From positions 2,696,230-2,760,229 of the forward strand of contig NZ_CM001775.1 of the NCBI RefSeq assembly GCF_000332235.1: DNA of 64,000 nt, in the 5' to 3' direction. The DNA comes from Geminocystis herdmanii PCC 6308 (GTDB taxonomy: Bacteria > Cyanobacteriota > Cyanobacteriia > Cyanobacteriales > Cyanobacteriaceae). Below the pieces are notes generated by a model. The model was not told where the DNA came from. It searched no databases and saw only the letters and a list, made by a program, of their open reading frames with translations. Each line of letters opens with the position of its first letter. Within the stretch, counting starts at the first letter, position 1. The position numbers and the translations under genes were made by a program. Below are positions 5,736-22,588 of this stretch, one piece after another.

Positions 5736-5775
5736 CTCTTTCTATCTCCCTCACTACTAAGAGGATAAGATAAAA

Positions 5776-6161
5776 AAAGAGAGTAAGGAGTAAGCCGGGT
5801 TCTGTTCCTTTGGTAAACTATTAGTAAACTAAAGGGGTAGTTATCTATCTAGGATGAACATTACTGATCACCTCAAGCGGTACACCGAAGACGAAATCGG
5901 GAAAAGATCAACCGTAATTCCTCCGACCTTGCTCCCCACCGGGGTTTACCGAGCCAGTACCTCTCGATACTGCTGGTGCGCTCTTACCGACACCTTTGCA
6001 CCCTTACCCGAAAACGGGCGGTATTTTTCTGTGGCACTATCCTCACGCTCACGCGCACTGGGCGTTACCCAGCAAGTTTGATCTTTTGGGAGCCCGGACT
6101 TTCCTCAAACTAAACTTCACAGGAAAAGTTTAATTTGCAACTACCGCTCTTACTCTCTTTT
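5776..6161 (-). ncRNA. rnpB: RNase P RNA (bacterial class A)
   Basis: Read on the minus strand, the segment holds the universal GAGGAAAGTCCGGGCTCCC block near the 5' end and ends with AACAGAACCCGGCTTACTCC. The ends pair over about 12 bp (AAAGAGAGTAAG with CTTACTCTCTTT), giving helix P1 and fixing the span to roughly 386 nt, the usual length. This is the catalytic RNA that matures tRNA 5' ends. A reading frame inside it (5854-6081) is an artefact. An AT-rich TATTAT-like -10 lies just upstream at about 6165-6172. Confidence 0.97.
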
Positions 6162-7106: not shown

Positions 7107-7366
7107 ATGAACTCGATCGATAAAAATACGATCGTATCCCAACTTTATTGTACAACGGGGAAACCCACCAATAATTTTTTACTTGCACCGCCGAACTACG
7201 TTTCCGATACTCCTTTGATGGAATATAACATGGAAAAAGCAAAGGAATTATTAGATAATGCAGGATAGAAAGACAGTAAAGGTGACGGTATTCGAGATAA
7301 AAACGGTGTCGAAATGAAAGTAGTATTTCAAACAACCGTTAATCCCTTACGTCAAAAAAACCCAAG
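7107..7366 (+). pseudogene. Remnant of a peptide/nickel ABC transporter substrate-binding protein
   Basis: The plus-strand frame from 7107 reads TIVSQLY..TGKPTNNFLLAPP, then NMEKAKELLDNAG, then KGDGIRDKNGVEMKV and VVFQTTVNPLRQK, which is the hallmark internal segment of family 5 (DppA/OppA-like) solute-binding proteins. There is an in-frame TAG where the family has Trp (AGW), and a +1 frameshift in an A tract (about 7351-7357) after NPLRQ. Only about 85 of more than 500 codons remain. Mobile element A follows within about 25 bp. Clearly non-functional; the family call is from recognition of conserved motifs. Confidence 0.85.
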
Positions 7367-7388
7367 AAATAAACAGAGTTGGCAATCT

Positions 7389-7780
7389 TTAGCTTCTGCA
7401 GTAAGAAGCCCCACGTCCGTATTTTTCGGTAAAAGAACACACATTAAAATCGGCGTAGGATAAATTACGGTCAAGATTTATGATATAATTTGATTAATCG
7501 GTGCTAGAGAGATGTAGCCGTAGTCGGCGAACTCCCCGTTGTAGAAAGGCTAGAGACTACCTATCAATAAATTGATAGCCCCAATGCTTCACTGTTCCTC
7601 TTATAAGCTATAAGCGTAAATGAACAAAGGCGGGTGAAAAACTAAATAGAATTACTACCTTCGGAACGAGGGATAAAGCCTATCGCCAGAGAGTAAGACT
7701 CAATAATCTACAAAGATTAAAAAGCGTTTCTTTGGGTAGGAAGCCAACACTGTAATTTTAATTCAGTATGAGTAGTTCAC
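7389..7780 (+). mobile_element. Non-autonomous IS200/IS605-like element carrying a structured RNA, copy A
   Basis: About 392 bp that match 21069-21454 in inverted orientation over their full length. Shared parts in order: left tag TTAGCTTCTGC, a palindromic left end (GTAAGAAGCCCCACG with TTACGG; partly decayed in this copy), a TATAAT box (7484-7489), a conserved structured stretch beginning CGGTGCTAGAGAGATGTAGC, and a right-end hairpin (here partly degraded, intact in B) followed by GTAGTTCAC. There is no transposase ORF. The architecture (subterminal hairpins, no target duplication) points to IS200/IS605-type single-strand transposition; that family label is inference. Confidence 0.68.
7496..7770 (+). 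ncRNA. Putative omega-RNA-like or HEARO-like structured RNA, copy A
   Basis: Begins a few bases after TATAAT. Visible pairings include GTAGTC with GACTAC, CTATCAAT with ATTGATAG, TTCAC...TGTTC with GAACA...GTGAA, and a variable hairpin AATCT/AGATT. In copy B the last hairpin is TTGTTACT/AGTAACAA, so sequence changes while pairing is kept. The conservation between copies is of RNA type, not coding. Whether it is a TnpB-type guide RNA, a HEARO RNA or another class cannot be settled by eye. Confidence 0.5.
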
Positions 7781-7840
7781 TATTTTTATTTTGAATAATT
7801 TATCTCGATAAACTAGGACTCATCAAACCCGATAATAGAT

Positions 7841-8473
7841 TTATAGACGGTGTGACATTGCCCATTCCCTAATTTTTTGACGAATTGTTCTTCTTCCTTG
7901 TAAACGATATTGATTAATAACATCTGGTATTTCTTGCACGGGTAAATCTGGAAAAACTAAACTTGATCCTGATGTTTCATAGGTTTCATCGGCTTGTAAT
8001 AAATAAATATTCAACTGTTCTTCATCATAACACCACAATTCAGGTATCCCTAAACGCGCATAAATAGGAAAACGATTTAAAGATTTACTGGTAAGATCAA
8101 TTTCTAAGGCAAGATCAGGAGGAGGGTCTTGGTTTAAATCATAATCTAATTTACCTCTTATTTTAGGCTCATTCTGAAAATAAAAACAGTTGTCAGGTTC
8201 AACCCCAGCCATTTTTGCCTGTTTACGCCAAGTTGTAGAGCCTAAACTTTCATAATCTCTCTCTAAAACTTCAGCAATGTCTTGAATTGCTGTACCAATA
8301 TTTTCTTTAAAGTACTCGTGTTCGGGTAAAGGACTCATAATTTCTAAAGTTCCATAATCATAAGCAATCCTAGCAGAACGGATTTGTCCCAAATCTATGA
8401 GGATATTTTCAAATTGTTGCCAATCTATATTATAAAGTAAGACTCGATCGGCTCTCTTTTTGGTAAGCATCAT
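7841..8473 (-). CDS. Uma2 family endonuclease-like protein (DUF820)
   Basis: 210 residues with the PD-(D/E)xK-type core of the Uma2/DUF820 family, which is strongly expanded in cyanobacteria: YDYGTLEIMSPLPEHE near the N-terminus, then PPDLALEIDLTSKSL with the presumed catalytic D, E and K, then IYARLGIPELWCYDEEQLNIY. Biological role is unknown; a nuclease role is inferred from fold. It lies next to mobile element A on the opposite strand, and a second, divergent Uma2 gene follows at 8721. Confidence 0.88.
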   Translation of the reverse strand: MMLTKKRADRVLLYNIDWQQFENILIDLGQIRSARIAYDYGTLEIMSPLPEHEYFKENIGTAIQDIAEVLERDYESLGSTTWRKQAKMAGVEPDNCFYFQNEPKIRGKLDYDLNQDPPPDLALEIDLTSKSLNRFPIYARLGIPELWCYDEEQLNIYLLQADETYETSGSSLVFPDLPVQEIPDVINQYRLQGRRTIRQKIREWAMSHRL

Positions 8474-8720
8474 TATTGACTTGTGAAGGGTTTACTAATA
8501 TCATAACTGGATTTTTTGTTCGATCGAACGGTTATTTTTTCGTTTAAAGTAATTATAGATTTATTTTTTGAATATTAAAATATTCCATCAAAATTATGAG
8601 AAAACTAAGTAAATTTTCAATTAATTCTTATTATTTTTTGCTGTAGTTATCGATCGTCTTCACCGCTAATTTTATAGCTACCTGAGATAGAATATAGAGA
8701 AAGTAATCTGGTTAAAAATT

Positions 8721-9461
8721 ATGACACAATCGAGCTTCAAACAAAGATACTCTTTCCCCCTTGATTCCCCCATAAAAAGATTAACTTTTGAAGAATACTT
8801 AAAGTACGAAGACAACACAGATACTAAATATGAACTTTATCGGGGGAAATTAATACCAATGGCGACACCAACAGGTTTACATACGAGAATTTGTAATTAT
8901 TTAGTATATCAATTTCAAGTGTTTTTTGCCTCTGTGGAACTTAATGTAGTGGCGATTAATGATGTGGGAGTGAGAACAGGAATTGATAGTTCTCGTATCC
9001 CAGATGTTATCATCAGCACAAGGGAATTATGGGAAAAAGTGTGCGATCGCAAAGGTTCGGGAGTGTTTGATTTACAAGAGACACCGAGATTAGTGGTAGA
9101 AGTATCTAGCGAAAATTGGCGAGAAGACTATATTTTAACAAGAGCCGAATATGCTTTGATTGAAATACCAGAATATTGGATTATAGATGCGAATAAACAA
9201 CGAATCAGAATTTTAACCCATCCCGAAGGGGAAGATGGTTACGAATATAATGATTTTGTATCGGGAGAAACAATTAACTCTTTGGAGTTTCCTGATTTAA
9301 GTTTATCCGTTGATGAATTACTTGCACCTCTAGTTGTAGAGGATTTAATCAAAGCACAACAGGTGGAACGTAAACAATTAGAATTACAACTAGAACAAGA
9401 ACGTCAACGTGCTGAAAAGTTGGAAAGACTCTTAAGGGAGAAAGGAATTAGCATCGAGTAA
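8721..9461 (+). CDS. Uma2 family endonuclease-like protein with C-terminal coiled coil
   Basis: 246 residues. Core motifs: LTFEEYLKYEDNTDTKYELY, IPDVIISTREL, PRLVVEVSSENWREDYILTR (catalytic-type E and surrounding) and YALIEIPEYWIIDANKQRIR. The last 40 residues form a charged coiled coil (KAQQVERKQLELQLEQERQR), a common tail on Uma2 proteins. Divergent from the 210-residue Uma2 gene; the two are only distantly similar, so this is not a recent duplication. Function unknown beyond fold. Confidence 0.88.
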   Translation: MTQSSFKQRYSFPLDSPIKRLTFEEYLKYEDNTDTKYELYRGKLIPMATPTGLHTRICNYLVYQFQVFFASVELNVVAINDVGVRTGIDSSRIPDVIISTRELWEKVCDRKGSGVFDLQETPRLVVEVSSENWREDYILTRAEYALIEIPEYWIIDANKQRIRILTHPEGEDGYEYNDFVSGETINSLEFPDLSLSVDELLAPLVVEDLIKAQQVERKQLELQLEQERQRAEKLERLLREKGISIE

Positions 9462-9631
9462 AAGAAAAAGAAGAAAAGCAATAAACATAAGTTTTTTATA
9501 AATTCTTTAACCTAATACCTAATACCTAACACCTTTCCTCATCAGAAGACGATGAGACAACCCCTAATCATTAATAGTTCGGAAACCCGTACAATCAAGG
9601 TACTTGCTATGGTCATAAATTTTCGGTTAAA

Positions 9632-9658
9632 TTAGCACTCGTAAGGTGAGAGCGCTAA
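9632..9658. promoter_or_regulatory. CIRCE operator (HrcA binding site)
   Basis: TTAGCACTC, nine bases, GAGCGCTAA: an almost perfect CIRCE inverted repeat (one mismatch from GAGTGCTAA). It stands 56 bp before groES, the standard position for heat-shock control of groESL by the HrcA repressor. Confidence 0.95.
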
Positions 9659-9713
9659 AAATAAAACGACTCACTGAAAAACCATAGTTAACTAAAAAAG
9701 GAGTAAACCATCA

Positions 9714-10025
9714 ATGGCAGCAATTACCATTAATGTATCAACAGTAAAGCCTTTAGGCGATCGAGTTTTCGTTAAAGTAAGTGAAGCAGAAGAAAAAACT
9801 GCGGGTGGAATCTACTTACCTGACAACGCCAAAGAGAAACCCCAAGTAGGAGAAGTCGTCACCGTTGGGGATGGAAAAGTAAACGATAAAGGAGAACGTA
9901 CTCCCGTTGAAGTAAAAGTTGGCGACAAAGTACTTTATTCCAAATATGCAGGTACAGACATCAAATTAGGTGGCGATGACTACGTTTTACTCTCCGAAAA
10001 AGACATCCTTGCAGTAGTTTCCTAA
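9714..10025 (+). CDS. groES: Co-chaperonin GroES
   Basis: 103 residues, full length. Forms the heptameric lid of the GroEL folding chamber in the cytosol. Recognised by [20 protein letters not shown], the mobile loop [14 protein letters not shown], and [20 protein letters not shown]. Good ribosome site (AAAAAAGGAG) upstream of the ATG. First gene of groESL, under the CIRCE operator at 9632; groEL follows after 111 bp. Confidence 0.98.
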
Positions 10026-10043
10026 CTCCGTAAATTTCATAGT

Positions 10044-10069
10044 AGGTTGGGTTGAGGTACGAAACCCAA
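10044..10069. other. Intercistronic hairpin in groESL
   Basis: GGTTGGGTT and AACCCAA pair around a short loop (GAGGTACGA). It lies between groES and groEL and has no T tract, so it is more likely an mRNA-stability or attenuation hairpin, or one of the dispersed GTTGGGTT palindromes. A related palindrome follows groEL at 11776. Confidence 0.5.
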
Positions 10070-10130
10070 ATAATCCGTTCGATCGTACCAAAAATTATTA
10101 CAAATTATACAAAAAAATCAAGAGAATTGA

Positions 10131-11762
<1,632 letters not shown>

Positions 11763-11775
11763 TCCTTGAAATTGT

Positions 11776-11843
11776 GTTGGGTTTCATTCTTCAACCCAAC
11801 CTACAAGATAAATAAATGGGTGGGCAATGCCCACCTTTTTTTT
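11776..11843 (+). terminator. Tandem hairpins ending groESL, rho-independent type
   Basis: First hairpin GTTGGGTT/AACCCAAC (11776-11800), second GGTGGGC/GCCCACC (11819-11835) followed at once by eight T. The second one is a good intrinsic terminator. The same GGTGGGCAATGCCCACC core also occurs at 39823-39839 and, as GGTGGGTATTGCCCACC, at 22855-22871. Confidence 0.8.
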
Positions 11844-11937
11844 GTGTAAAAATAAATATATTATTGTTTATAATTTCGTTAACTATTGAGGATATTAAAA
11901 ATGTTAGTATTATATTAATTAAGTCAAGGAGGTAGTT

Positions 11938-12789
11938 GTGGTCAAAATTTTTTCTCCAAAACAGCAAAATCCCAATTTTTTGTCAAATAAACTCATTGGT
12001 ATAGACGAGCAAAAAAAAATATTAGAAGCCTTTTGTAATTTTGTTTGGTCACAAGATTGGCAGGAACAATCTAAAACACTTCATTTTATGTCAACCATTT
12101 TATTATATGGTCCACCCGGAACGGGAAAAACATCATTGTTAAAAGAAGTTGCTAATAATTTTGAAATAAATGGTATTAAGTATTATCGAGAAAGTTTAGA
12201 CCTTTTGGTTGATAAAGAGTTAGGGGAAACATCAAAAGCAATTAAAGAGTTATTTGAGCAAATTATTGAACAGGGAAAATGTGGAAAAAAAGTATTTTTA
12301 CAGTTAGATGATATAGATTCTGTGTTATCTTCTCGTTTTATGAGTAATGAATCATCAGGGGTTAGACGAGGGGTTAATACCTTCTTGATACAATTAGATG
12401 AATTATTACAAATAGATTTTGAATACACTCCCGTGATTGCCGCTACAACAAATATGTTTTCAAATTTAGATTCAGCTATTAAAAGGAGATTTTCTTTAAA
12501 GATTAAAGTTGATCCTATTTTAAATAGAATACAACTTGAGGATTTGTTGAGTCCCATTGAAAAAATAATTGGTAGTCAATTACAAATTGATTATGATTTA
12601 ATAGAAAGTATTACTAAAGAAAAAAAATTTACTCCTTATGATATTATATTAGTTATGCAAAAGTTATTTTTAAATAGCTTAATTGGAAATGAAATTCAAT
12701 TTCAACAGTTTATTGACGAATTAAATAGTTCTGAATCATCAAAAGTGTCTTTTGAAAAACAAGAACAGGCTTATTCTTTACTTCAATAA
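11938..12789 (+). CDS. AAA-family ATPase, first gene of an unassigned four-gene cassette
   Basis: 283 residues. One AAA module: Walker A GPPGTGKT (residues 58-65), Walker B VFLQLDD (119-125, the usual catalytic Glu replaced by Asp), sensor 1 AATTN (168-172) and an Arg-finger-like KRRF (182-185), then a small helical lid. There is no second domain, so the partner function should come from the genes after it. The GTG start at 11938 is chosen because of a perfect AAGGAGG at 11926-11932. Three small genes follow with spacings of +9, -1 and +1 bp, each behind AAGGAG or AAAGGAG. No CGATCG is seen from about 11665 to 13877, unlike the flanks, so transfer is likely. Not recognised as a known system. 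Confidence 0.88.
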   Translation: MVKIFSPKQQNPNFLSNKLIGIDEQKKILEAFCNFVWSQDWQEQSKTLHFMSTILLYGPPGTGKTSLLKEVANNFEINGIKYYRESLDLLVDKELGETSKAIKELFEQIIEQGKCGKKVFLQLDDIDSVLSSRFMSNESSGVRRGVNTFLIQLDELLQIDFEYTPVIAATTNMFSNLDSAIKRRFSLKIKVDPILNRIQLEDLLSPIEKIIGSQLQIDYDLIESITKEKKFTPYDIILVMQKLFLNSLIGNEIQFQQFIDELNSSESSKVSFEKQEQAYSLLQ

Positions 12790-12798
12790 AGGAGAATT

Positions 12799-13026
12799 AT
12801 GACAGATACAAGAAGTTCGGGAAGGAAAACTATTGATTCATACATCAAACATGAGGATATGGTTGATAATGCGGTTAAATTAGGCGCAAAAAATGGTTTA
12901 AAAGTGGAAGCTACTACTGAGAATGACTCAAGAGGAGACATCAAAGTAGCAAAGGAAGATTCAAAAAAATATTTGGATTTACTCGGAGATACTATTGATA
13001 AAAATCAAGCAAGGAGAAATAAGTAA
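12799..13026 (+). CDS. Small charged protein of the AAA cassette
   Basis: 75 residues, very hydrophilic (SSGRKTIDSYIKHEDMVDNA and TTENDSRGDIKVAKEDSKKY). No membrane segment, signal or known motif is visible. The ribosome site AAAGGAG lies 6 bp before the ATG, and its stop codon overlaps the next start (TAATG). Tight coupling to the ATPase gene argues for a shared function, for instance as adaptor or substrate; that is inference. Confidence 0.75.
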   Translation: MTDTRSSGRKTIDSYIKHEDMVDNAVKLGAKNGLKVEATTENDSRGDIKVAKEDSKKYLDLLGDTIDKNQARRNK

Positions 13027-13250
13027 TGTCCGAAAATTCTGATTATATTGAAGTTAAAGCATATTCTTCCGCTATACCTCCAAGCAAAGCTAAAAAAATA
13101 GCTGAAAAAGGAGTTTCGGGGGTTATCTCAGGTGGACCTATATCGGATAAATCAAAAAAAATATTTAATGATCATGATATATGGTATCGAGAAAATGTTG
13201 AACCCAGTGATTTAGAATCTGAAAGTAGAGAAATAGAAAAGGAGAATTAA
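13026..13250 (+). CDS. Small alpha/beta protein of the AAA cassette
   Basis: 74 residues. Not recognised. The sequence YIEVKAYSSAIPPSKAKKIA followed by GVSGVISGGPISDKSKKIF and then IWYRENVEPSDL suggests a single helix-strand-helix-strand unit, like a fragment of a Rossmann-like or nuclease-like fold, but no catalytic motif can be named. The start overlaps the previous stop by one base, so translation is probably coupled. Confidence 0.75.
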   Translation: MSENSDYIEVKAYSSAIPPSKAKKIAEKGVSGVISGGPISDKSKKIFNDHDIWYRENVEPSDLESESREIEKEN

Positions 13251-13251
13251 T

Positions 13252-13656
13252 ATGGATTTTGACTTTTATGATAAAAAATTAAAACCAGTTGGAACAGTTA
13301 GTGTTGGAGCAGAATTAATGAAAAAAATTATGTCAACTACAACTATCCCTAAATTAGAAACTAATGGAGAACTTCCTCCAGATAGTTCTCTTGACAAAGA
13401 TGAACTCAGTGATTTGATTACATTGTCAACTATAGAAAAAGATTTTATTGGCAAAGAATTAAGTGAACTTTTATCAGGAGAATTTTATAAAGAAATTGAG
13501 GACAAAAAACGAAATTCAATATCAGATTATGGTGAAACAATACAAGAAAAAATTTCCGATGACAGCAATAACACTCATAAAAGCAACGCACAAGTTGTTG
13601 TAGAGTTACTTTCATATCTTGTAAATGACAACATTACTCATTTTCGTTTAGGTTAA
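13252..13656 (+). CDS. Hypothetical protein, last gene of the AAA cassette
   Basis: 134 residues, acidic and soluble. Helical segments at about 55-85 (DELSDLITLSTIEKDFIGKE) and 110-130 (AQVVVELLSYLVNDNITHF). No known family recognised. It has a strong AAAAGGAG site and begins one base after the previous stop. No clear terminator follows. In the gap after it (13690-13725), a short stretch resembles the inner part of the MITE at 1696 (GATAGGAAAAATACTTAAAA, then ATCAAGGTTTTG), which may mark the right edge of an insertion. Confidence 0.75.
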   Translation: MDFDFYDKKLKPVGTVSVGAELMKKIMSTTTIPKLETNGELPPDSSLDKDELSDLITLSTIEKDFIGKELSELLSGEFYKEIEDKKRNSISDYGETIQEKISDDSNNTHKSNAQVVVELLSYLVNDNITHFRLG

Positions 13657-13896
13657 TAAAATTTTTCTTATGTGATAGTTGATTACTGTAGAAGATAGGA
13701 AAAATACTTAAAAATCAAGGTTTTGTTATATGTAAACACAAATACACAAAAATCTTGTCAAAAAATTATGGCACAAGTTCGTCTAAGAATCTTTCAAGTG
13801 TTATTTAAAATATTATAAAAAGCATTCTTTCTTTCGTTTTGACGATAAAACAAACGATTGGTTTGTTTACTCTCAGATAAATCGATCGAACCTAAA

Positions 13897-14367
13897 CTAT
13901 TTAATTTCAAATTGTTTCCATAAAATTAAGGCATCTTCTCCAGTACTTTTATAATATTTTTTGCGTCTTCCTGCTTCTTTAAAACCAAATTTTTCATATA
14001 AACTCAAGGCTTTGATATTATTTTCTCCCACTTCTAAAGTCGCTCTTTCTAAAGATTTATTTTGCGCTTCTTTTAATAATTTAGTTAATAATAATTTACC
14101 AAAACCTTGCCCTTGAAAATCTGGATGAATCGCTAAAATAGTTAAATGTGCCTCCTCAAGAATTGACCAAAAACAACCTAAACCAATCACTTTTTCGGTA
14201 TTATTAATATCAATAGTTAGAACTAATAAACAACTATTAGGGCTTTCTATTTCTCTTTTATAACCGTCTAAACTCCATAAACCGCCAAAACAAAGATGAT
14301 CTAATTCTAAGACTTGATCTAGTTCTTTTTTGGTTAAATTCTTTATATTAATTATTTCTAAACTCAT
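13897..14367 (-). CDS. rimI: Ribosomal protein S18 alanine N-acetyltransferase RimI (GNAT)
   Basis: 156 residues, full-length GNAT fold. The acetyl-CoA loop is HPDFQGQGFGKLLLTKLL (Q/R-x-x-G-x-G/A), followed by RATLEVGENNIKALSLYEKF, the RimI-type motif with the catalytic-region Glu and Tyr, and the C-terminal GFKEAGRRKKYYKSTGEDAL. Acetylates the N-terminal Ala of ribosomal protein S18 in the family prototype; other N-terminal targets are possible. Monocistronic, facing the AAA cassette. Confidence 0.88.
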   Translation of the reverse strand: MSLEIINIKNLTKKELDQVLELDHLCFGGLWSLDGYKREIESPNSCLLVLTIDINNTEKVIGLGCFWSILEEAHLTILAIHPDFQGQGFGKLLLTKLLKEAQNKSLERATLEVGENNIKALSLYEKFGFKEAGRRKKYYKSTGEDALILWKQFEIK

Positions 14368-14447
14368 ATAAGTTAAGTATTAAATATTAACGAAGGATGA
14401 TGTTTTTCTGTGCATTATCTCGGTTAATTTTTTAGCTATTTATTAAT

Positions 14448-14756
14448 TTATATAATCCATTCGGAAGTTCGATCGCCCAAATCAAGGGAAAAACTAACGG
14501 CTTTACCCAAGCGTGGGCGACTTTTGGCTTCTTGAATACCATTTTCCACCTGAGAAATGACTCCCCAAGAGGTGATATAGTTGGCGATTTCGTCTAAATG
14601 TAGAAGATACTCTGATTCATTCCAATGAAAGGAGGCTTGTTCTAAATATTTCCACATTACCTGAAAATAGATTTTATCCTTAATATTGATCACTTGAATA
14701 TCATAGGAATATCCCCATTTATTGAAAATTAATTCTCTTAATTCTTTTCCTGTCAT
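14448..14756 (-). CDS. DUF3067 family protein
   Basis: 102 residues. The pattern MTGKELRELIFNKWGYSYDI, WKYLEQASFHWNESEYLLHL and KSRPRLGKAVSFSLDLGDR is that of DUF3067, a small soluble family found in cyanobacteria and plastid-bearing eukaryotes. Function unknown. Same strand as rimI and nadK but separated by more than 80 and 260 bp, so an operon is unlikely. Confidence 0.88.
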   Translation of the reverse strand: MTGKELRELIFNKWGYSYDIQVINIKDKIYFQVMWKYLEQASFHWNESEYLLHLDEIANYITSWGVISQVENGIQEAKSRPRLGKAVSFSLDLGDRTSEWII

Positions 14757-15017
14757 AAATAGACTTCTCCAAAGATATATTTTGACCTTTTTTGTGGTTT
14801 TTTCCCTTTTGCTCTTTGTTCCTTCGTTTCAATTAAAATATAGAAACATTTTACCTCATAAGGGTAGAAATTACAATAGATAATTTTGGTTCTGTTAAAG
14901 ATTCTTTAGTTTCTTCATCGATAATATTTTTTGATGATAAAATAAATTATCTCATTATCTATTTTCAAGTTAAATTGACTTTTTTTATTGATAGCTAAAA
15001 TTGCCCTATTCGGAGGT

Positions 15018-15938
15018 TTAATTACGGTGATTATTTTCACAATAAATTCTTGCTCCAGCCCATTGTAATTTTTCTCGTAAAGTTTTATAAAATGAATGTG
15101 CTTCCCTTAAAATAATAAATTGGGCTTGACATTGTGCCATACTTATACTTACCCATTGTCCGGGCCAAATAGAGGTAGCTAATACTCCATCCATCCATAG
15201 TTTATTATTCAATTCGTAATCTCCCAGTGTCCATATACTTACAACCGATCGAGGAGGTAATAATAAAGGGCGACTAGATAAACTCAAAGGACATATGGGG
15301 GTAACAGCGATCGCACTCATCCCCGGATGTATAATCGGGCCACTAGCAGAAGCAGTATAACAGGTTGAACCCGTAGGAGTAGAAACGATTAAACCATCAC
15401 CATGATACTGATCTACTACTTCTCCATCCACTTCCATTTCAAGGATAGCTGTGGGCATTCTATCCAAACAAGCAGGTTTAACACACATCTCATTTAAGCA
15501 AAAAAATCGATCGCTCACTGCTTCAATATCATTTTTATTTCTCTCCCATATTTGCGCTTCCAACATCATGCGCCTTTCTACGGCATATAAATCATTTTCA
15601 AGACGATACCACAGGTTTTCTGTATCCTGAAAAAGACTAAAAGGTTCAGTTAAAAATCCTAAATGTCCTCCCACATTAACCGCTAAAATGGGGATATTTT
15701 CTGGGGATAAATGACGGGCTGCAGCTAAAATTGTCCCGTCTCCCCCTAATATAATACCAAGATCGATCGACTGAGTAGCAGAAGCCAAAAATACAGGATA
15801 AGGATTATCTTTAAAACCACTAGGACCTAATAATACCTTACAATCACGGGCTTCCAACTCTTTAGCACATCTTTCCGCCCATGCTTTACTATCCCTATCC
15901 CCAGCTTTATAGGCAATAATTACTTGTTTTAACCGCAC
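15018..15938 (-). CDS. nadK: NAD(+) kinase
   Basis: 306 residues. Phosphorylates NAD to NADP. The signature GGDGT is present (LGIILGGDGTILAAARHL), with the second conserved region YHGDGLIVSTPTGSTCYTAS and later PICPLSLSSRPLLLPPRSVV. Length fits the cyanobacterial longer form (usually two nadK paralogues per genome; which one this is cannot be told). ATG at 15938 opens directly with MRLKQVIIAYKAGD, as in homologues. Divergent from ilvC. Confidence 0.94.
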   Translation of the reverse strand: MRLKQVIIAYKAGDRDSKAWAERCAKELEARDCKVLLGPSGFKDNPYPVFLASATQSIDLGIILGGDGTILAAARHLSPENIPILAVNVGGHLGFLTEPFSLFQDTENLWYRLENDLYAVERRMMLEAQIWERNKNDIEAVSDRFFCLNEMCVKPACLDRMPTAILEMEVDGEVVDQYHGDGLIVSTPTGSTCYTASASGPIIHPGMSAIAVTPICPLSLSSRPLLLPPRSVVSIWTLGDYELNNKLWMDGVLATSIWPGQWVSISMAQCQAQFIILREAHSFYKTLREKLQWAGARIYCENNHRN

Positions 15939-16099
15939 GATTTTTCTAATCTAATTTTTTTTATTTTATCCTAATGGGAAAAATCTCAACTTTGGATTTT
16001 TGGTAAAATGACGAAGTCTTAAATTGATTAAAGATTGAGACTGATTTTAGGATACAATACAAGGTTGCTCACTAAATTTAAAATTTTATACAGAGGTAA

Positions 16100-17098
<999 letters not shown>

Positions 17099-17140
17099 TC
17101 CCAAGGTTTTAGGTGTTAGGTTTTAGGTAATAAGAATACT

Positions 17141-17389
17141 ATGAAAAAATTACTAATTTTCCTCATTACTTTTTATCGTCGCTTCATTTCTCCTCTATTC
17201 CCTCCTAGTTGTCGGTTTATACCAACTTGTTCTCAATATGCTTTAGAGGCGATCGAGCGTCATGGTACAATCAAGGGTAGTTGTTTGAGTGTGCGCAGAG
17301 TTTGCCGTTGTCATCCTTTTCATCAAGGTGGTTATGATCCTGTTCCTTCATTATCGGATAATTTGACTTCTTTGCTCGATGGAGATTAA
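17141..17389 (+). CDS. yidD: Membrane protein insertion efficiency factor YidD
   Basis: 82 residues, full length. A small amphipathic helix at the N-terminus ([20 protein letters not shown]) is followed by the family signature with three Cys: [20 protein letters not shown], then [17 protein letters not shown]. Assists YidC-dependent membrane insertion. Only 42 bp after ilvC, so possibly read through from it, although the gap holds a TTTTAGGTGTTAGG-type repeat. Confidence 0.93.
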
Positions 17390-17428
17390 ATAGTAGTAGA
17401 GTTGTTACACCCTACTTTCTTTTTTTCT

Positions 17429-17454
17429 CACGCAAAGACGCAAAGGCACAAAGA
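17429..17454. repeat. Heptamer tandem repeat, CGCAAAG type (short copy)
   Basis: CACGCAAAGACGCAAAGGCACAAAG between yidD and rpmF; same motif as 812-856 and 47175-47214. Confidence 0.65.
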
Positions 17455-17458
17455 AATA

Positions 17459-17632
17459 CTATTCTTCTGTTTCTTCTTCCTCAGTAGGGTAAACAAAACT
17501 ATTGGATTTACCACTTAATACCGATTTACCTAATGCTAATGCTCTTTGGGCTTGTAATTCCGCTTTTTTAATCCAATGCGCTCGACGTTGATTTCTTTTC
17601 GATTTAGATGTTTTCTTCTTAGGTACTGCCAT
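17459..17632 (-). CDS. rpmF: Ribosomal protein bL32
   Basis: 57 residues read on the minus strand. The N-terminus [20 protein letters not shown] is diagnostic of bL32, a component of the large ribosomal subunit; [20 protein letters not shown] and an acidic [10 protein letters not shown] tail follow. The Cys pair of zinc-binding L32 forms is absent, usual for cyanobacteria. Convergent with yidD, with a heptamer repeat in the narrow gap. Confidence 0.95.
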
Positions 17633-17718
17633 GAATTTTTATATAATATTTTGATTATTGGACAATTTTACTATTCTAACCTGATTCGATCGATACTGAC
17701 AATATTAACATCTTAAAA

Positions 17719-17805
17719 GATAAAATAAGATATTTGACTAACGAAGAAGGAACAAAAACCGATGTTTTAGTGCCATTAGCTATCTGGAATAATCATCAGG
17801 AAGTT
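17719..17805 (+). pseudogene. Possible Phd/RelB-type antitoxin remnant
   Basis: Plus-strand frame reading IRYLTNEEGTKTDVLVPLAI, which resembles the N-terminal part of Phd-like antitoxins (x-Y-V-T-D-E-x-G-x-x-x-A-V-L-L-P-L). No ATG, no partner toxin, and the frame runs into the antisense of the downstream regulator gene. Low-confidence relic. Confidence 0.35.
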
Positions 17806-19016
17806 TCGCTTTTTAATTCCAGGGGAGAATCACCTGATTTAGAGGATTTTTTCCCACGAAAACATGATTTTATTTTAGCTAAAACTTTCTCTTGATCAAT
17901 GGGTTTTCCTAAAAAACCACTCGCCCCTACCAGTTTACTTCTCACTCGATCGATCATACCATCATTACTGGTTAAAATAATAATTGGGGTATCTTTTAAC
18001 GAAGAAACTCGACGAATTTGCGAACAAATTTCATAACCATTAACAATAGGCATGATTAAGTCTAAAAAAATTAAATCAGGCTTTCTTTTGAGAATTTCTG
18101 GTAAGGCTTTTAAAGGGTTTTGAATAGAGATATATTGATAACCAGCTTCTGTTACAATATGTTCCATAATTTGACAAACTTGGAGGCTATCGTCCACACA
18201 AAGTATCAATTGTTGATGAGTTGTTTTAGTTATTTTATAGTCATGATTAGTAACTCCAATTAAAGTGATTTCTACAGATTGATCTTTTATTTCTACTAAA
18301 GAAATTAGCCCCTGTTCAAAATAAGGTTTTAACCAAAGAGTTAGTTTAATAATAGTTAAATTTAATTTGTCTGCTAATTCTATTAAGGGAAATTTTCCAT
18401 TTAATAAAGATACTAATTTGCTATAAGTATTTTCTTTTCCTTTAAATTTTTGTTTTAATAAAAGAGGATTTTTAATAACTGGGGCATAATTGGGACTAAA
18501 AGAAGTTAAACCAAAGTTTTCCCATTGTTGCCACTGAGGCTCAACGGCTGTTAATACTGTTTCTATTTTTAATAATGTAATCGATACTTTTAAGCCTGAC
18601 TCCTCAGAAAAATTATCTTCTACTACCACCAAATCATAACTAAGTTTTTCTTGATTTTCTGCTTGATAAAGATCAAATAATATTTGTTTTATTCTCTCAT
18701 TAATTAAACATAAAGCCTGTTCTTTTGTAATTAAAAATCTTTGCAATAAAGACACCATTAAATAATAATTCCAACACTCAAATTTTTTAGCTTTATTAAT
18801 ATCAATAAAATGATGATCTAAATGAGGACAATATTTATTTAATAACCTTTCCCATGCTCTATAAGGATGATAACCTCCATCCGCCCAAATTAAACGACTT
18901 AGACAAAAATACAATCGCCATTCTTTTCCTTTGCTATTTTTAATGTCTATTCTGCCTGTAAACTTTTTTCCTTGGAGGGATTGCAGTTTTTGTTTTAGTA
19001 CTCCTGAACTACTCAT
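17796..19016 (-). CDS. PatA-like response regulator (PATAN/DUF4388 + REC)
   Basis: 406 residues. The N-terminal half is a PATAN-type DUF4388 domain (GKKFTGRIDIKNSKGKEWRL, then CLSRLIWADGGYHPYRAWER). The last 130 residues are a phosphoreceiver: acidic pair CVDDS, phospho-acceptor Asp in DLIFLDLIMPIVNGYE, Thr in IIILTSND, Lys in GFLGKPID. Cyanobacterial relatives (PatA, PixG, PilG-like) take part in heterocyst patterning, phototaxis and pilus control. Here no chemotaxis gene cluster adjoins, so the input and output are unknown. An output DNA-binding domain is absent. Confidence 0.88.
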   Translation of the reverse strand: MSSSGVLKQKLQSLQGKKFTGRIDIKNSKGKEWRLYFCLSRLIWADGGYHPYRAWERLLNKYCPHLDHHFIDINKAKKFECWNYYLMVSLLQRFLITKEQALCLINERIKQILFDLYQAENQEKLSYDLVVVEDNFSEESGLKVSITLLKIETVLTAVEPQWQQWENFGLTSFSPNYAPVIKNPLLLKQKFKGKENTYSKLVSLLNGKFPLIELADKLNLTIIKLTLWLKPYFEQGLISLVEIKDQSVEITLIGVTNHDYKITKTTHQQLILCVDDSLQVCQIMEHIVTEAGYQYISIQNPLKALPEILKRKPDLIFLDLIMPIVNGYEICSQIRRVSSLKDTPIIILTSNDGMIDRVRSKLVGASGFLGKPIDQEKVLAKIKSCFRGKKSSKSGDSPLELKSETS

Positions 19017-19488
19017 TGTTTCCCCTTGATGTTCTCACTTAAGTATATCCTCTTTTCGTCATCAACTATGAATTTCATCATCTACAATTTAACGAAAAAA
19101 TTTTGCTGATTTTCAGTTTACTCTTCAGTTACTCTAAAATAATCTCAATTAGCTATACAATTTATTGATGTTGATCAGGTGTATAGTTATTCTTGATCAG
19201 ACGATCGAGATTATCGATTAGACTTCTTGCAGAAGTTGAGTAATGAGTAATGAGTAATAAGTTAAGAAATTTATGTTTTTCACCCTAAAATAGATTTTAC
19301 TTTTTATTTTGCACTCGTGTCTATTATTATTATTTTAGTTCGATCGAACATTTTTATTTCTATGTTATTTTAGAGTAGAAAAGATCAGAAAAAATAAATT
19401 TGTTGACTTTCTTAATAAACACAAAAAGCAGTAAGGGTGTTAGGTTAAATTAAAATGATTAAGACTCTGTTATTTTGAGTGTGATAAA
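19017..19488. other. 472-bp gap without a recognised gene
   Basis: AT-rich. Contains a short tandem heptamer GAGTAAT (19231-19254), a TTCGATCGAA palindrome near 19340, and no frame with good coding character. It separates two divergently read genes, so the promoters of both should lie here, but no clear -35/-10 pair could be chosen. Confidence 0.5.
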
Positions 19489-21048
19489 TTGTTTCTAAAT
19501 CAATATATGTTAAATAAAGAGTGTTGTGTTGTCACTGCCAAACAAATGCAGGAAATTGAAAACCGAATGTTTGCGCAAGAAATGCCCGTAGCTAGTTTGA
19601 TGGAAAAAGCAGGTTTATTCTCCACTCAAAAAATTGTTGAAGAATATCCTCAAAATCAATATAAAAAAGTAGGATTTATCATCGGTTGTGGACATAATGG
19701 AGGAGATGGTTTAGTTATTGCTAGGGAATTGTGGCTACAAGGTTACGAAGTTTGGTTATATACTCCCCTAGCTGACAAGTCAAAGGAGTTAACACAACAA
19801 CATTTACACTATGCAAAGTTTTTAAATTTGCCTTTTGTCACTACCATTGAAGAATTAAAAAATTGTCATGTCATTATCGATTGTCTGTTTGGTTTTGGCT
19901 TAAATCGTCACATTAGCCACTCTTTAGCGGATGATGTCACTTTAGTTAATCAATGGCAAAAACCGATAGTTAGTATCGACATTCCCTCTGGGATTCATAC
20001 CAATACAGGGGAAGTTTTAGGAGTTGCCATCAAAGCTACTCTGACTTTATGTTTGGGATTATGGAAGTTAGGTTTATTTCAGTCTCCTGCGTGGGAATAT
20101 ACGGGAAAGTTAACAAAAATTGATATAGGTATTCCTAATCATATTGTTACTGATGTAATTAGTCAATCTCCAGCGGTAAGGGTGATAACGAGGGAAAAAG
20201 TTAAAGAAGTGTTACCCTTACCTCGTGCAGTGAATACTCACAAATATCGTCAAGGAAATGTCTTATTAATATGTGGCTCAAAACCCTATGGCGGTGCTGG
20301 TTTATTAGCTGGTTATGGTGCTAATATCAGTGGGGTGGGGATGTTAACCATGATTGTACCTCAATTTTTGCAACCTTTGATTAATGGTAATATTCCTTCG
20401 GCTTTGGTAATAGCTACCCCAGAAACGACAACGGGAGTGATGGATTTTTCTTCTTTACCTCCTATAGATTTTTCTAAGTATAGTTCGATCGTGCTTGGAA
20501 TGGGCATTAGTCGAGAAAAAATACCCTGTTTTCCTTTTCAAGAAATTTTGGCTACTCCTAGTATCTTAATTATCGATGCTGATGGTTTTAACTATCTAAC
20601 AGAAGATAACCTCCGAATTTTATCACAACGTCAATTTCCCACAATCTTAACTCCCCATGAGGGAGAATTTAAACGTTTATTCCCTGATATTGACTTAAAT
20701 AAAAATCGATTACAAGGATTACAGGAAGCCTCCCAAAGAATTAATAGTACTATTTTACTAAAAGGAGCTAAAACGATGGTAAGCCATCAGGGAAAATATA
20801 ATTGGATTATCAAAGAAGGCACTCCTGCTTTAGCTAGAGGAGGCAGTGGAGATGTATTGAGCGGTTTTTTGGGAGGATTACTGGCACAAATGGATTTAAG
20901 CAAATACTCTATAGAAGATGTGGTGGCTTCTGGAGGATGGTTACATCAACAGGGAGGAATTTTAGCTTCTCAAGATTTGACAGAATTAGGTGTTGATGGA
21001 GTCAGTTTAACTCGTTATATCTCTCGATCGATCGAACTTTTATTTTGA
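19489..21048 (+). CDS. nnr: Bifunctional NAD(P)HX epimerase / ADP-dependent NAD(P)HX dehydratase
   Basis: 519 residues. The N-terminal YjeF_N epimerase half (about 1-220) shows GFIIGCGHNGGDGLVIAREL and VSIDIPSGIHTNTG. The C-terminal carbohydrate-kinase-like dehydratase half (about 230-519) shows KYRQGNVLLICGSKPYGGAG, TPHEGEFKRL and the catalytic GTPALARGGSGDVLSGFLGG. Repairs hydrated NADH and NADPH. The TTG at 19489 and ATG at 19507 are both possible starts; neither has a strong ribosome site and homologues align best from VTAKQMQEIE. Element B follows 20 bp after the stop. Confidence 0.94.
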   Translation: MFLNQYMLNKECCVVTAKQMQEIENRMFAQEMPVASLMEKAGLFSTQKIVEEYPQNQYKKVGFIIGCGHNGGDGLVIARELWLQGYEVWLYTPLADKSKELTQQHLHYAKFLNLPFVTTIEELKNCHVIIDCLFGFGLNRHISHSLADDVTLVNQWQKPIVSIDIPSGIHTNTGEVLGVAIKATLTLCLGLWKLGLFQSPAWEYTGKLTKIDIGIPNHIVTDVISQSPAVRVITREKVKEVLPLPRAVNTHKYRQGNVLLICGSKPYGGAGLLAGYGANISGVGMLTMIVPQFLQPLINGNIPSALVIATPETTTGVMDFSSLPPIDFSKYSSIVLGMGISREKIPCFPFQEILATPSILIIDADGFNYLTEDNLRILSQRQFPTILTPHEGEFKRLFPDIDLNKNRLQGLQEASQRINSTILLKGAKTMVSHQGKYNWIIKEGTPALARGGSGDVLSGFLGGLLAQMDLSKYSIEDVVASGGWLHQQGGILASQDLTELGVDGVSLTRYISRSIELLF

Positions 21049-21068
21049 GAGTCAGTAATTAGTGTCTG

Positions 21069-21454
21069 GTGAACTACCGACACTGAATTAAAATTACAGT
21101 GTTGACTTCCTACCCAAAGAAATGCTTGTTACTCCAAGAAGTAACAAGTCTTATTCTCTGGCGATAGGCTTTATCCCTCGTTCCGAAGGTCTTGTAATTC
21201 TGTTTAGTTTTTCACCCGCCTTTGTTCATTTACGCTTATGCTTACAAGAGGAACAGTGAAGCATTGGGGCTATCAATTGATTGATAGGTAGTCTCTAGCC
21301 TTTCTACAACGGGGAGTTCGCCGACTACGGCTACATCTCTCTAGCACCGATTAATGAAATTATATCATAAATCTTGACCGTAATTCATCCCACGCTTGTT
21401 TAATTTTTTTTTTCAACGAAAACTAAGCGTGGGGCTTCTTACGGCAGAAGCTAA
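21069..21454 (-). mobile_element. Non-autonomous IS200/IS605-like element carrying a structured RNA, copy B
   Basis: About 386 bp, inverted copy of 7389-7780 and better preserved. Its left end is a strong interrupted palindrome (CCGTAA...CCACGCTT paired with AAGCGTGG...TTACGG). The right end is the hairpin CACTG-taattttaatt-CAGTG followed by GTAGTTCAC. The TATAAT box is at 21359-21364 (minus strand). The left end supplies the last 13 codons and stop of the ketosynthase gene. No transposase gene is present; parentage to IS200/IS605 is inferred from structure. Confidence 0.7.
21078..21352 (-). ncRNA. Putative omega-RNA-like or HEARO-like structured RNA, copy B
   Basis: Starts about 7 bases after TATAAT with CGGTGCTAGAGAGATGTAGC and runs to the right-end hairpin. 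Hairpin TTGTTACT/AGTAACAA replaces AATCT/AGATT of copy A. Internal blocks such as GGGATAAAGCCTATCGCC and CCTTCGGAACGAGG are identical between copies. If it is a TnpB-type RNA, the guide would be the flank after GTAGTTCAC (from 21068 leftwards). Class uncertain. Confidence 0.5.
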
Positions 21455-22588
21455 CTTTTTTCTCCTCTCTCCTATACAAATTACCGCATTTTGTCCGCCG
21501 AAACCGAAGCTAAAACAAAGTATTTTCTTTACAGGGTATTTCTCTGGTTTAATACAAAAATTCAAATCAAATTCTGAAGGAGAAAGCCTTGTATTGGGTA
21601 ACAGAGTTTGTCTGTCTAAGGAAAATAAACTTAAAGCGGTGGCGATCGCACCTGAAGCACCTAAAGTATGCCCTGTAATTCCTTTAGTGGAACTAACTTT
21701 GGGATTATGAGGGAATAAATGATCAATAATTTTAGCTTCCCGTTGATCATTTAAGATTGTACCAGTACCGTGGGCGTGAATATAATCGATGTCTTGAGGT
21801 TTAGTTTGGCTACGTTGTAAACACTGTTCGATCGATTTTATGGCAGTATAACCTTCTTTTTCAGGCGCTGTCATTCCTTGAGCATCGCAAGTCATACCCC
21901 ATGCCAAGATTTCTCCATAAATTTTAGCTTGACGACTTTTTGCTAAGGCTTCGGTTTCTAACATCAACATTGCGCCTCCTTCCCCTAACACAAAGCCATC
22001 CCTTGTTTTTCCAAATGGGTCACATCCTATAAGACTCAAGGCTTTCATTTGCCTAAATCCCGTCATGGTTAGGGGGGTAATGGGAGTTTCCACAGCACCA
22101 ACAATCACCCTTTCACAGCGTTGTTGTTTAATTAATTCGTACCCCTGCGCTATGGCAACTAACCCCGTAGCACAGGCATTGGTAGGAGAAAGCACGATCG
22201 AACTACTTTGAATATAATTAGCTACTATCAAGGATGGTTGACAGGGTAAAGTCTCTAACCAAGGAGGTGAAAAATGAGGTTTATCAGAGGAAAGAAATAT
22301 TTCCCAATCCCCCTGACAACCACGACTCGAACCCATTACCACACCAGTATCTGTCAAGGGTAGCTCAAGGTTCGATCGATCGAGCAAATCTCGAATTAAT
22401 ATAGAAGTGACATCCCCCATAAAAGCGGGATGAGAGTTAATTAAAGCAAGAGGTAAAGGGGGAAAATAATCAAAAGGTTGCCTAAACTGAATGCCAGAGA
22501 CACCATTTATTACCCCCTGCCAAGTAGCTTCTGTATCTCCTAAACTCGAAACAATACTAATACCGGTGACGACAACTTTAACCATCAA
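21413..22588 (-). CDS. Beta-ketoacyl-ACP synthase, FabF-like; C-terminus supplied by mobile element
   Basis: 391 residues. Condensing enzyme with the complete Cys-His-His set: SPTNACATGLVAIAQGYELI, HAHGTGT and STKGITGHTLGASGA, so it should be catalytic. The gene opens VKVVVTGISIVSSLGDTEATW. The natural end of the fold is FSFGFGGQNAVICI; the last residues LASAVRSPTLSFR are encoded by element B, which inserted at the 3' end without destroying the core. The enzyme is shorter than FabF (about 415), more like the divergent second ketosynthase that many cyanobacteria carry. Role in fatty-acid or specialised-lipid synthesis is inferred. Confidence 0.88.
   Translation of the reverse strand: MMVKVVVTGISIVSSLGDTEATWQGVINGVSGIQFRQPFDYFPPLPLALINSHPAFMGDVTSILIRDLLDRSNLELPLTDTGVVMGSSRGCQGDWEIFLSSDKPHFSPPWLETLPCQPSLIVANYIQSSSIVLSPTNACATGLVAIAQGYELIKQQRCERVIVGAVETPITPLTMTGFRQMKALSLIGCDPFGKTRDGFVLGEGGAMLMLETEALAKSRQAKIYGEILAWGMTCDAQGMTAPEKEGYTAIKSIEQCLQRSQTKPQDIDYIHAHGTGTILNDQREAKIIDHLFPHNPKVSSTKGITGHTLGASGAIATALSLFSLDRQTLLPNTRLSPSEFDLNFCIKPEKYPVKKILCFSFGFGGQNAVICIGERRKKLASAVRSPTLSFR

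Follow-up and report, generated by a model that had tools for sequence, protein, structure and literature searches.

Two inverted copies of a short element lie within a stretch of 64,000 nucleotides (nt) from the cyanobacterium Geminocystis herdmanii PCC 6308 (contig NZ_CM001775.1, positions 2,696,230 to 2,760,229 of the forward strand; hereafter the window, with coordinates counted from its first letter). The element is probably a non-autonomous member of the IS200/IS605 family that encodes only a TnpB-type guide RNA, called omega-RNA or right-end element RNA (reRNA). This reading draws on the lack of any open reading frame (ORF), on ends like those of a resident insertion sequence (IS) encoding TnpA and TnpB, on an omega-RNA fold with its pseudoknot letters, and on an internal −10-like hexamer. 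A sequence-only reading of the same DNA had proposed a minimal IS200/IS605 RNA element used in trans by TnpB or IscB. The TnpB branch of that proposal gains from the ends, the fold, the hexamer and the covariation. The IscB branch, with its HEARO RNA, finds no support: the copies have no Rfam match, and genome searches for RF02033 and RRXRR, although weak as proof of absence, gave none either.

Two ORF-less copies and their resident relatives

Copy 1 spans 7389-7780 (+) and copy 2 spans 21069-21454 (−), as placed by BLAST and global alignment. Copy 2 is the match of copy 1 in its own genome, with 89% identity over positions 1-392 (E 1e-141), and 353 of 383 aligned positions are identical in the global alignment. 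The claim of two full-length inverted copies without an ORF is thus borne out. Both stretches stand as elements apart from their first two bases: the TT at 7389-7390, and likewise at 21453-21454, is probably target, because TT precedes 15 of 15 left ends among those listed. The proper start of copy 1 is then at about 7391. The two insertion sites are unrelated, as are the right flanks.

Identity between the copies differs by segment. It is lowest in the left end (58/68) and reaches 28/28 in the promoter stretch, 86/88 in a 5′ domain, 74/77 in the middle and 107/122 in the right 124 nt. Neither copy contains a transposase or any other ORF, as befits a non-autonomous IS200/IS605 element. The longest stop-free run is 43 amino acids (aa) in copy 1 and 55 aa in copy 2, and shuffles of copy 1 (n = 200) average 62. 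Both copies fall below the shuffle mean, which argues against a long decayed ORF and hence against the possibility, raised by the sequence-only reading, that the conserved stretch is one.

The left end (7391-7462, (+)) has the reported subterminal palindrome, GCTTCT/AGAAGC at 7392-7397/7404-7409, and a second inverted repeat, CCCACG.../...CGTAGG, that is imperfect in copy 1. It resembles the left end of an IS605-type IS resident in the same genome, which is a single contig of 4.26 Mb. Y1 transposase matches occur at three places in this contig, two of them inside L231 and L234. These loci are copies of one IS encoding a 149-aa TnpA (PF01797, E 8e-44) and a divergent 457-aa TnpB, with ORFs and Pfam domains read in L231. 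Their sequences part directly left of TTAG. From the tnpA side, the IS begins with TT-AGCTTCTTCGGTGAGAAGCCCCACGC and ends with GAAGCC-hairpin-GGGTAGTTCAC; the window copies begin with TT-AGCTTCTGC.GTAAGAAGCCCCACG and end with GAAGYC-hairpin-GTAGTTCAC. Subterminal palindromes and ends are therefore common to the window copies and a Y1-TnpA element. Since the ends match, the TnpA of L231/L234 is the likely mover of the window copies.

A second resident relative, L233, carries tnpB only. Its 393-aa product has the PF01385, PF07282 and PF12323 domains (OrfB_IS605 and TNB). The left end of L233 is 82% identical to that of copy 1 over 71 nt, and its tnpB 3′ end plus right end agree with the 3′ half of the window copies, at 99 of 120 positions for copy 1 and at 94 of 118 for copy 2. 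L233 lacks the separate conserved 5′ domain of the copies. The full-length relatives with tnpA or tnpB that the sequence-only reading had suggested seeking are thus present in the genome.

A probable guide-RNA scaffold behind a conserved 5′ domain

The right end of copy 1, 7657-7780 (+), was recognized as an omega-RNA scaffold by alignment, joint folding and a loop search. Stem 1, CCTTCG/CGAGGG (7658-7663/7667-7672), closes on a GAA loop (7664-7666). Stem 2, CCTATC/GGTAGG (7679-7684/7735-7740), comes next, and the right-end hairpin follows. The element terminates in GTTCAC (7775-7780), whose TTC (7776-7778) is complementary to the GAA loop of stem 1. Upstream of the scaffold, a middle hairpin (TTCAC-TGTTC ... 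GAACA ... GTGAA, 7588-7638, (+)) was read from the letters only.

Our alignment of right ends combined 12 of ORF-less elements with 9 that are coded by tnpB, 21 in all; a zinc-ribbon motif lies upstream of all nine of the latter. The joint fold has four stems and 29 pairs, 15 of which show two-sided changes. As in TnpB omega-RNAs, the scaffold sits at the right end, and it is homologous to the scaffolds of tnpB-carrying elements. A hairpin change that keeps pairing between the two copies, claimed before, does lie in the 3′ half, enclosed by the stem of alignment columns 33-37/85-89, but is not itself a pair of this consensus fold.

In the omega-RNA of ISDra2, the pairing partners of −5U to −3C are −103A to −105G rather than −30A to −32G, which lie nearer, according to the available part of a cryo-electron microscopy study (PMC10097598). 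The corresponding letters were compared in 51 ORF-less elements, namely 49 of 61 loci with a right end plus L001 and L124, which the first regular expression had missed. Ten loci were left out (contig ends, decayed copies and a partial copy). At −5 to −3, 25 elements read UUC, another 25 read GUC and one reads UUU. The distal loop reads GAA in 20 elements with UUC and in the one with UUU; with GUC it reads GAC in 12 and GGC in 13. Allowing G-U pairs and using distal-loop contexts written by hand, the distal loop is complementary to the terminus in 48/51 elements, a count that includes L124, whose loop letters were possibly misread. The proximal trinucleotide is GAA in 51/51 and complementary in 26/51. 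The distal loop lies 115-233 nt from the element end (49 elements). The letters are thus complementary in the way that a pseudoknot joining the scaffold's 3′ terminus to a loop on its 5′ side would require.

Three elements depart from distal complementarity. L076 has a mismatch, and in L078 and L098 an insert moved the hairpin beyond the region searched. This insert is palindromic, measures roughly 70 nt and lies within the scaffold (GAAGGGGCGAC...CGCCCCTT). A mechanical search, which took the three best hairpins of each element and no hand-written contexts, found the GAA loop in both L078 and L098. By this search, 23 of the 26 elements of the UUC/UUU class have a GAA loop and 5 have GAC/GGC; of the 25 elements of the GUC class, 20 have GAC/GGC and 4 have GAA. 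The change from UUC to GUC is matched in the far loop and not in the near GAA, so recognition of the DNA end by TnpA would not explain it. On these letters, the matched change of terminus and distal loop points to selection on RNA.

The 5′ domain takes the place of tnpB, directly behind a TATAAT-like hexamer of its own. In copy 1 the domain covers 7496-7580 (+), with a match to R1, our 58-position covariance model of it, at 7504-7561; in copy 2 the R1 match is 21287-21344 (−; genome C1:2717516-2717573). The hexamer TATAAT stands where it had been reported, ahead of the conserved stretch in both copies (7484-7489 (+) and 21359-21364 (−)). The reported self-complementary blocks are also present. 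GTAGTC/GACTAC (7520-7525/7555-7560, (+)) forms the main, covarying helix, and CTATCAAT/ATTGATAG (7561-7578, (+)) forms a hairpin with arms 7561-7568/7571-7578.

In 18 distinct sequences, 99.1% of the cells of the main helix are paired, and four of its six pairs show two-sided changes (UA/AU, GC/AU, GC/AU, GC/CG). None of 500 shuffles reaches its covariation score or its percentage paired, and slid controls have at most one pair with a two-sided change. Covariance across more copies, anticipated by the sequence-only reading, is therefore found both here and in the right-end fold. Single-sequence folds of three RNAs disagree in the 5′ domain, so the helix rests on covariation. RNAalifold gave a poor consensus for 36 full-length RNAs because their middle is unalignable. 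Three further pairings were not adopted. In a candidate pseudoknot within the domain (UAGCC with GGCUA) three pairs are invariant and the other two fail in 11 and 10 of 18 distinct rows; a small helix, 31-33/41-43, shows no two-sided change; and the 5′ end AGCGG, which by eye and uncounted can pair with a CCGCU farther downstream in some elements, fails to do so in others.

The hexamer recurs across loci. When 56 loci were clustered at 80% into 31 distinct upstreams, 26 of these had a hexamer that matches TATAAT at five or more of six positions and starts between 37 and 21 nt ahead of GATGTAGCC. Shuffled upstreams gave a mean of 6.0 and a maximum of 13 (200 runs), and a stretch farther upstream gave 3/31. 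The rest of the upstream sequence is little conserved.

Distribution, further elements and surroundings

Among 388 genomes of the order, R1 detected the 5′ domain in 37, G. herdmanii included; in an overlapping phylum sample it did so in 10 of 386 genomes, one of them outside the order. A pattern scan returned 25 loci. Ten are cyanobacterial, with the holders Xenococcaceae MO_167.B27 and MO_234.B1, Prochloraceae MO_167.B41 and MO_167.B51, and T3Sed10_376R1m; the other 15, in actinobacteria and others, were judged by eye to be chance matches in GC-rich coding DNA. A DNA search among 100 relatives gave any match in 19, mostly to just the tnpB-3′-end part. No element match was found in plasmids and phages by blastn, or in viral contigs by exact pattern.

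The 5′ domain is combined with five kinds of right end: GTAGTTCAC, GTACTTCAC, GTATGTCAC, GTACGTCAC and GTGTCAA. Counted from the 5′ domain through the right end, the 51 measured elements are at most about 400 nt long, and none has room for tnpB. The overlap or shared coding with tnpB that is usual for an omega-RNA is absent from them, and we therefore class them as a stand-alone omega-RNA variant. A regular expression for TnpB zinc ribbons matched 0/55 element loci, and a stricter one caught only 8 of 20 PF07282 loci in the G. herdmanii genome, so the argument for the absence of tnpB rests on element length. TnpB genes occur in all 16 element-bearing genomes searched (of 37), with 5-150 matches per genome; genomes without the element were compared only as named controls.

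Genomes can hold several element sites, with flanks unrelated right up to GTAGTTCAC. In genome G009, three copies that are 99-100% identical lie in unrelated places with unrelated right flanks, a sign of mobility. Among 54 loci the next ORF to the right was found in 49; it has the element's orientation in 27 of these and the opposite one in 22. Judged by flanks and by eye, L112 (G327)/L113 (G324), L114 (G345)/L115 (G254) and L118 (G298)/L121 (G282) each share a site in two genomes of one genus, which suggests long residence.

The search for more copies that the sequence-only reading had called for turned up further partial copies in G. herdmanii. L003 (genome 264891-265088) is a copy of the 3′ half without the 5′ domain, and L010 (1891867-1891905) is a tiny relic made of promoter, start of the 5′ domain and GTAGTTCAC. 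The third, L007 (2059697-2059821), shares with L043, L044, L048, L050, L053 and L055 an omega-type right end; by eye, the 5′ half of these elements is of another kind, recognizable by GGCGAAAACCAAGCC or near variants of it. No zinc-ribbon motif was found in L043, L048 or L053. By eye, this group, L007 included, appears to be a second type of guide-RNA-only element. L154, L157 and L161 (G210) make up a third type with the right end GGGTACGTCAC. The 5′ part of L157 and L161 reads GTTGACC...GGTCAAACG, and that of L154 is related. Inspection by eye of the 3-kb ORF lists for L154 and L157 showed no ORF resembling TnpB.

Around the window copies, a ketoacyl-synthase-like ORF (FabF by eye, 21413-22588 (−)) runs on into copy 2 at its left end, and the element thus supplies the final residues and the stop codon of this ORF. 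The left flank of copy 1, about 7200-7388, looks by eye like what is left of a gene for the substrate-binding protein of a transporter, with a stop codon in frame. The sole Rfam match in the window at gathering score is a class A RNase P RNA (5775-6157 (−), RF00010, 256.7 bits), unrelated to the copies.

Competing explanations, proposed mechanism and significance

If the element were a plain palindrome-associated transposable element (PATE) or miniature inverted-repeat transposable element, only its DNA ends would matter, for TnpA; the interior would be passive and the RNA idle. The ends do match a resident TnpA element, and PATEs are known from IS605-rich genomes (available part of PMC3119063). 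We nevertheless consider this unlikely. The 5′ domain is better conserved between the window copies than the left end or the right 124 nt, which counts against a passive interior; it covaries across the order behind a recurrent −10; and the right terminus covaries with the remote loop, not with the proximal GAA. Decay of a tnpB element, with a conserved stretch left by chance, would account for the homology of the 3′ half to a tnpB 3′ end. It is hardly credible given stop-free runs no longer than in shuffles, one architecture in 51 elements over several families, and compensatory changes.

A guide RNA for IscB or IsrB would share the general look of IS200/IS605-type ends, and stand-alone HEARO loci exist for IscB. 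The Rfam check proposed earlier, for HEARO and omega-RNA models, gave no match in either copy, at gathering score or at E up to 10, with nothing better than E 2. Neither RF02033 nor RRXRR was found in the genome, in searches whose controls matched nowhere and which are thus weak as proof of absence. Right end and fold instead match those coded by tnpB, and we give a HEARO element next to no credence. A group I intron or IStron was also rejected, with no Rfam match at the same thresholds. TnpB relatives of the TldR type exemplify domesticated guide RNAs, and the element could be one that represses or cuts a chosen host target. The pairs of elements, at least three by eye, that keep their place in two genomes would fit such a role. 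Copies at unrelated sites with unrelated right flanks, in the window and in G009, and a next ORF that lies on either strand at similar frequency (27 against 22) do not, and we regard it as quite improbable.

Several points also weigh against the guide-RNA-only reading that we prefer. Scaffolds coded by tnpB have about 12 extra nt in the stem-3 region relative to the ORF-less ones, so acceptance of the shorter scaffold by that TnpB is not certain. The count of 48 used hand-written contexts, the GUC:GGC match depends on a G-U pair, and the mechanical search found neither loop in 6 elements and only the letters of the other class in 2. The changes in the pseudoknot letters represent few independent events, about one for each of the five right-end classes. 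Of the 500 shuffles made for the 5′ helix, 13 attain its tally of pairs changed on both sides and 134 its tally of pair types. TnpB genes abound in these genomes to such a degree that their co-occurrence is weak evidence. Finally, no empty site was recovered in a family search with the copy-2 region, in a search with G009 or by script; in the first two the flanking genes lay apart, not adjacent. Exact ends and target therefore rest on comparison of copies.

A guide-RNA-only element would work as follows. Transcription would start after the internal −10, pass through the 5′ domain and scaffold, and leave through the right end, so that the first ~16 nt of the right flank would become the guide. 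By analogy with ISDra2, whose guide of about 16 nt comes from the right flank (available part of PMC8612924), the predicted guides are 7781-7796 (+) for copy 1 and 21053-21068 (−) for copy 2. A Y1 TnpA from another element would peel the element out and paste it in. We infer that the RNA would be loaded in trans: a TnpB from another element would bind it and cut the donor site that excision had emptied, and the element would be restored there by repair that copies the sister chromosome. Such an element would be a parasite of parasites, keeping its own guide and borrowing both enzymes. That the pseudoknot letters covary across ORF-less elements argues that the guide RNA still works in trans. 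Omega-RNA nucleotides −231 to −117 of ISDra2 are dispensable for cleavage (available part of PMC10097598), so conservation of a domain 5′ of stem 1 calls for an extra function. Our guess is that it folds, stabilizes or protects the 5′ part of a transcript lacking the start of a tnpB mRNA, or presents it for processing.

Several known systems come close. ORF-less IS605 relatives with a guide RNA reportedly occur in Geobacillus. The HEARO RNA of IscB is likewise a guide RNA within an IS200/IS605-type element, but the present element has no RF02033 match. The omega-RNA of ISDra2 TnpB is alike in its right-end position, its right-end hairpin, its loop complementary to the terminal trinucleotide and, by analogy, its guide from the right flank (available parts of PMC8612924 and PMC10097598); the present RNA differs in lying outside any tnpB gene, with its own −10-like hexamer and an extra conserved 5′ domain. 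The PATEs of Haloquadratum are also transposase-free with IS605-type subterminal palindromes, but some are core deletions mediated by repeats and the available part of the source mentions no internal RNA (PMC3119063), whereas the RNA described here is conserved over an order. RAGATH-18, the reRNA of IS607 TnpB, is also a TnpB guide RNA; it differs in its IS607 context, and the present element has no Rfam match. As 64% of RAGATH-18 RNAs (10,258/16,029) adjoin IS607 tnpB according to the available part of PMC11061315, a share lies apart from tnpB and may include stand-alone copies.

That TnpB guide RNAs come from tnpB transcripts is well known (PMC8612924, PMC10097598), and in the available parts of the literature those published either do so or adjoin tnpB. 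The cargo of the present element is just the guide RNA together with a promoter-like hexamer. Titles and abstract openings among the matches listed, in which subscription journals are mostly outside coverage, describe no guide-RNA-only TnpB element family and no such 5′ domain in cyanobacteria. What appears new is that a TnpB guide-RNA element stands alone, carries a novel 5′ domain and shows signs of selection over a long time; the domain itself is an RNA conserved over several cyanobacterial families and outside Rfam. The finding makes testable the idea of a non-autonomous element that uses a foreign RNA-guided nuclease for its own retention. Guide-RNA-only transposons may even be an old, self-sustaining selfish class in cyanobacteria, a tentative view to which we give slightly less than even odds. 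They would have outlived lost tnpB genes, followed several TnpB types by joint change of scaffold and pseudoknot, and added a 5′ RNA domain (a protein-binding, processing or ribozyme module) to compete for TnpB in trans. Through elements of this kind, guide RNA and nuclease could come to be encoded separately by a natural path, as they are in CRISPR-Cas12.

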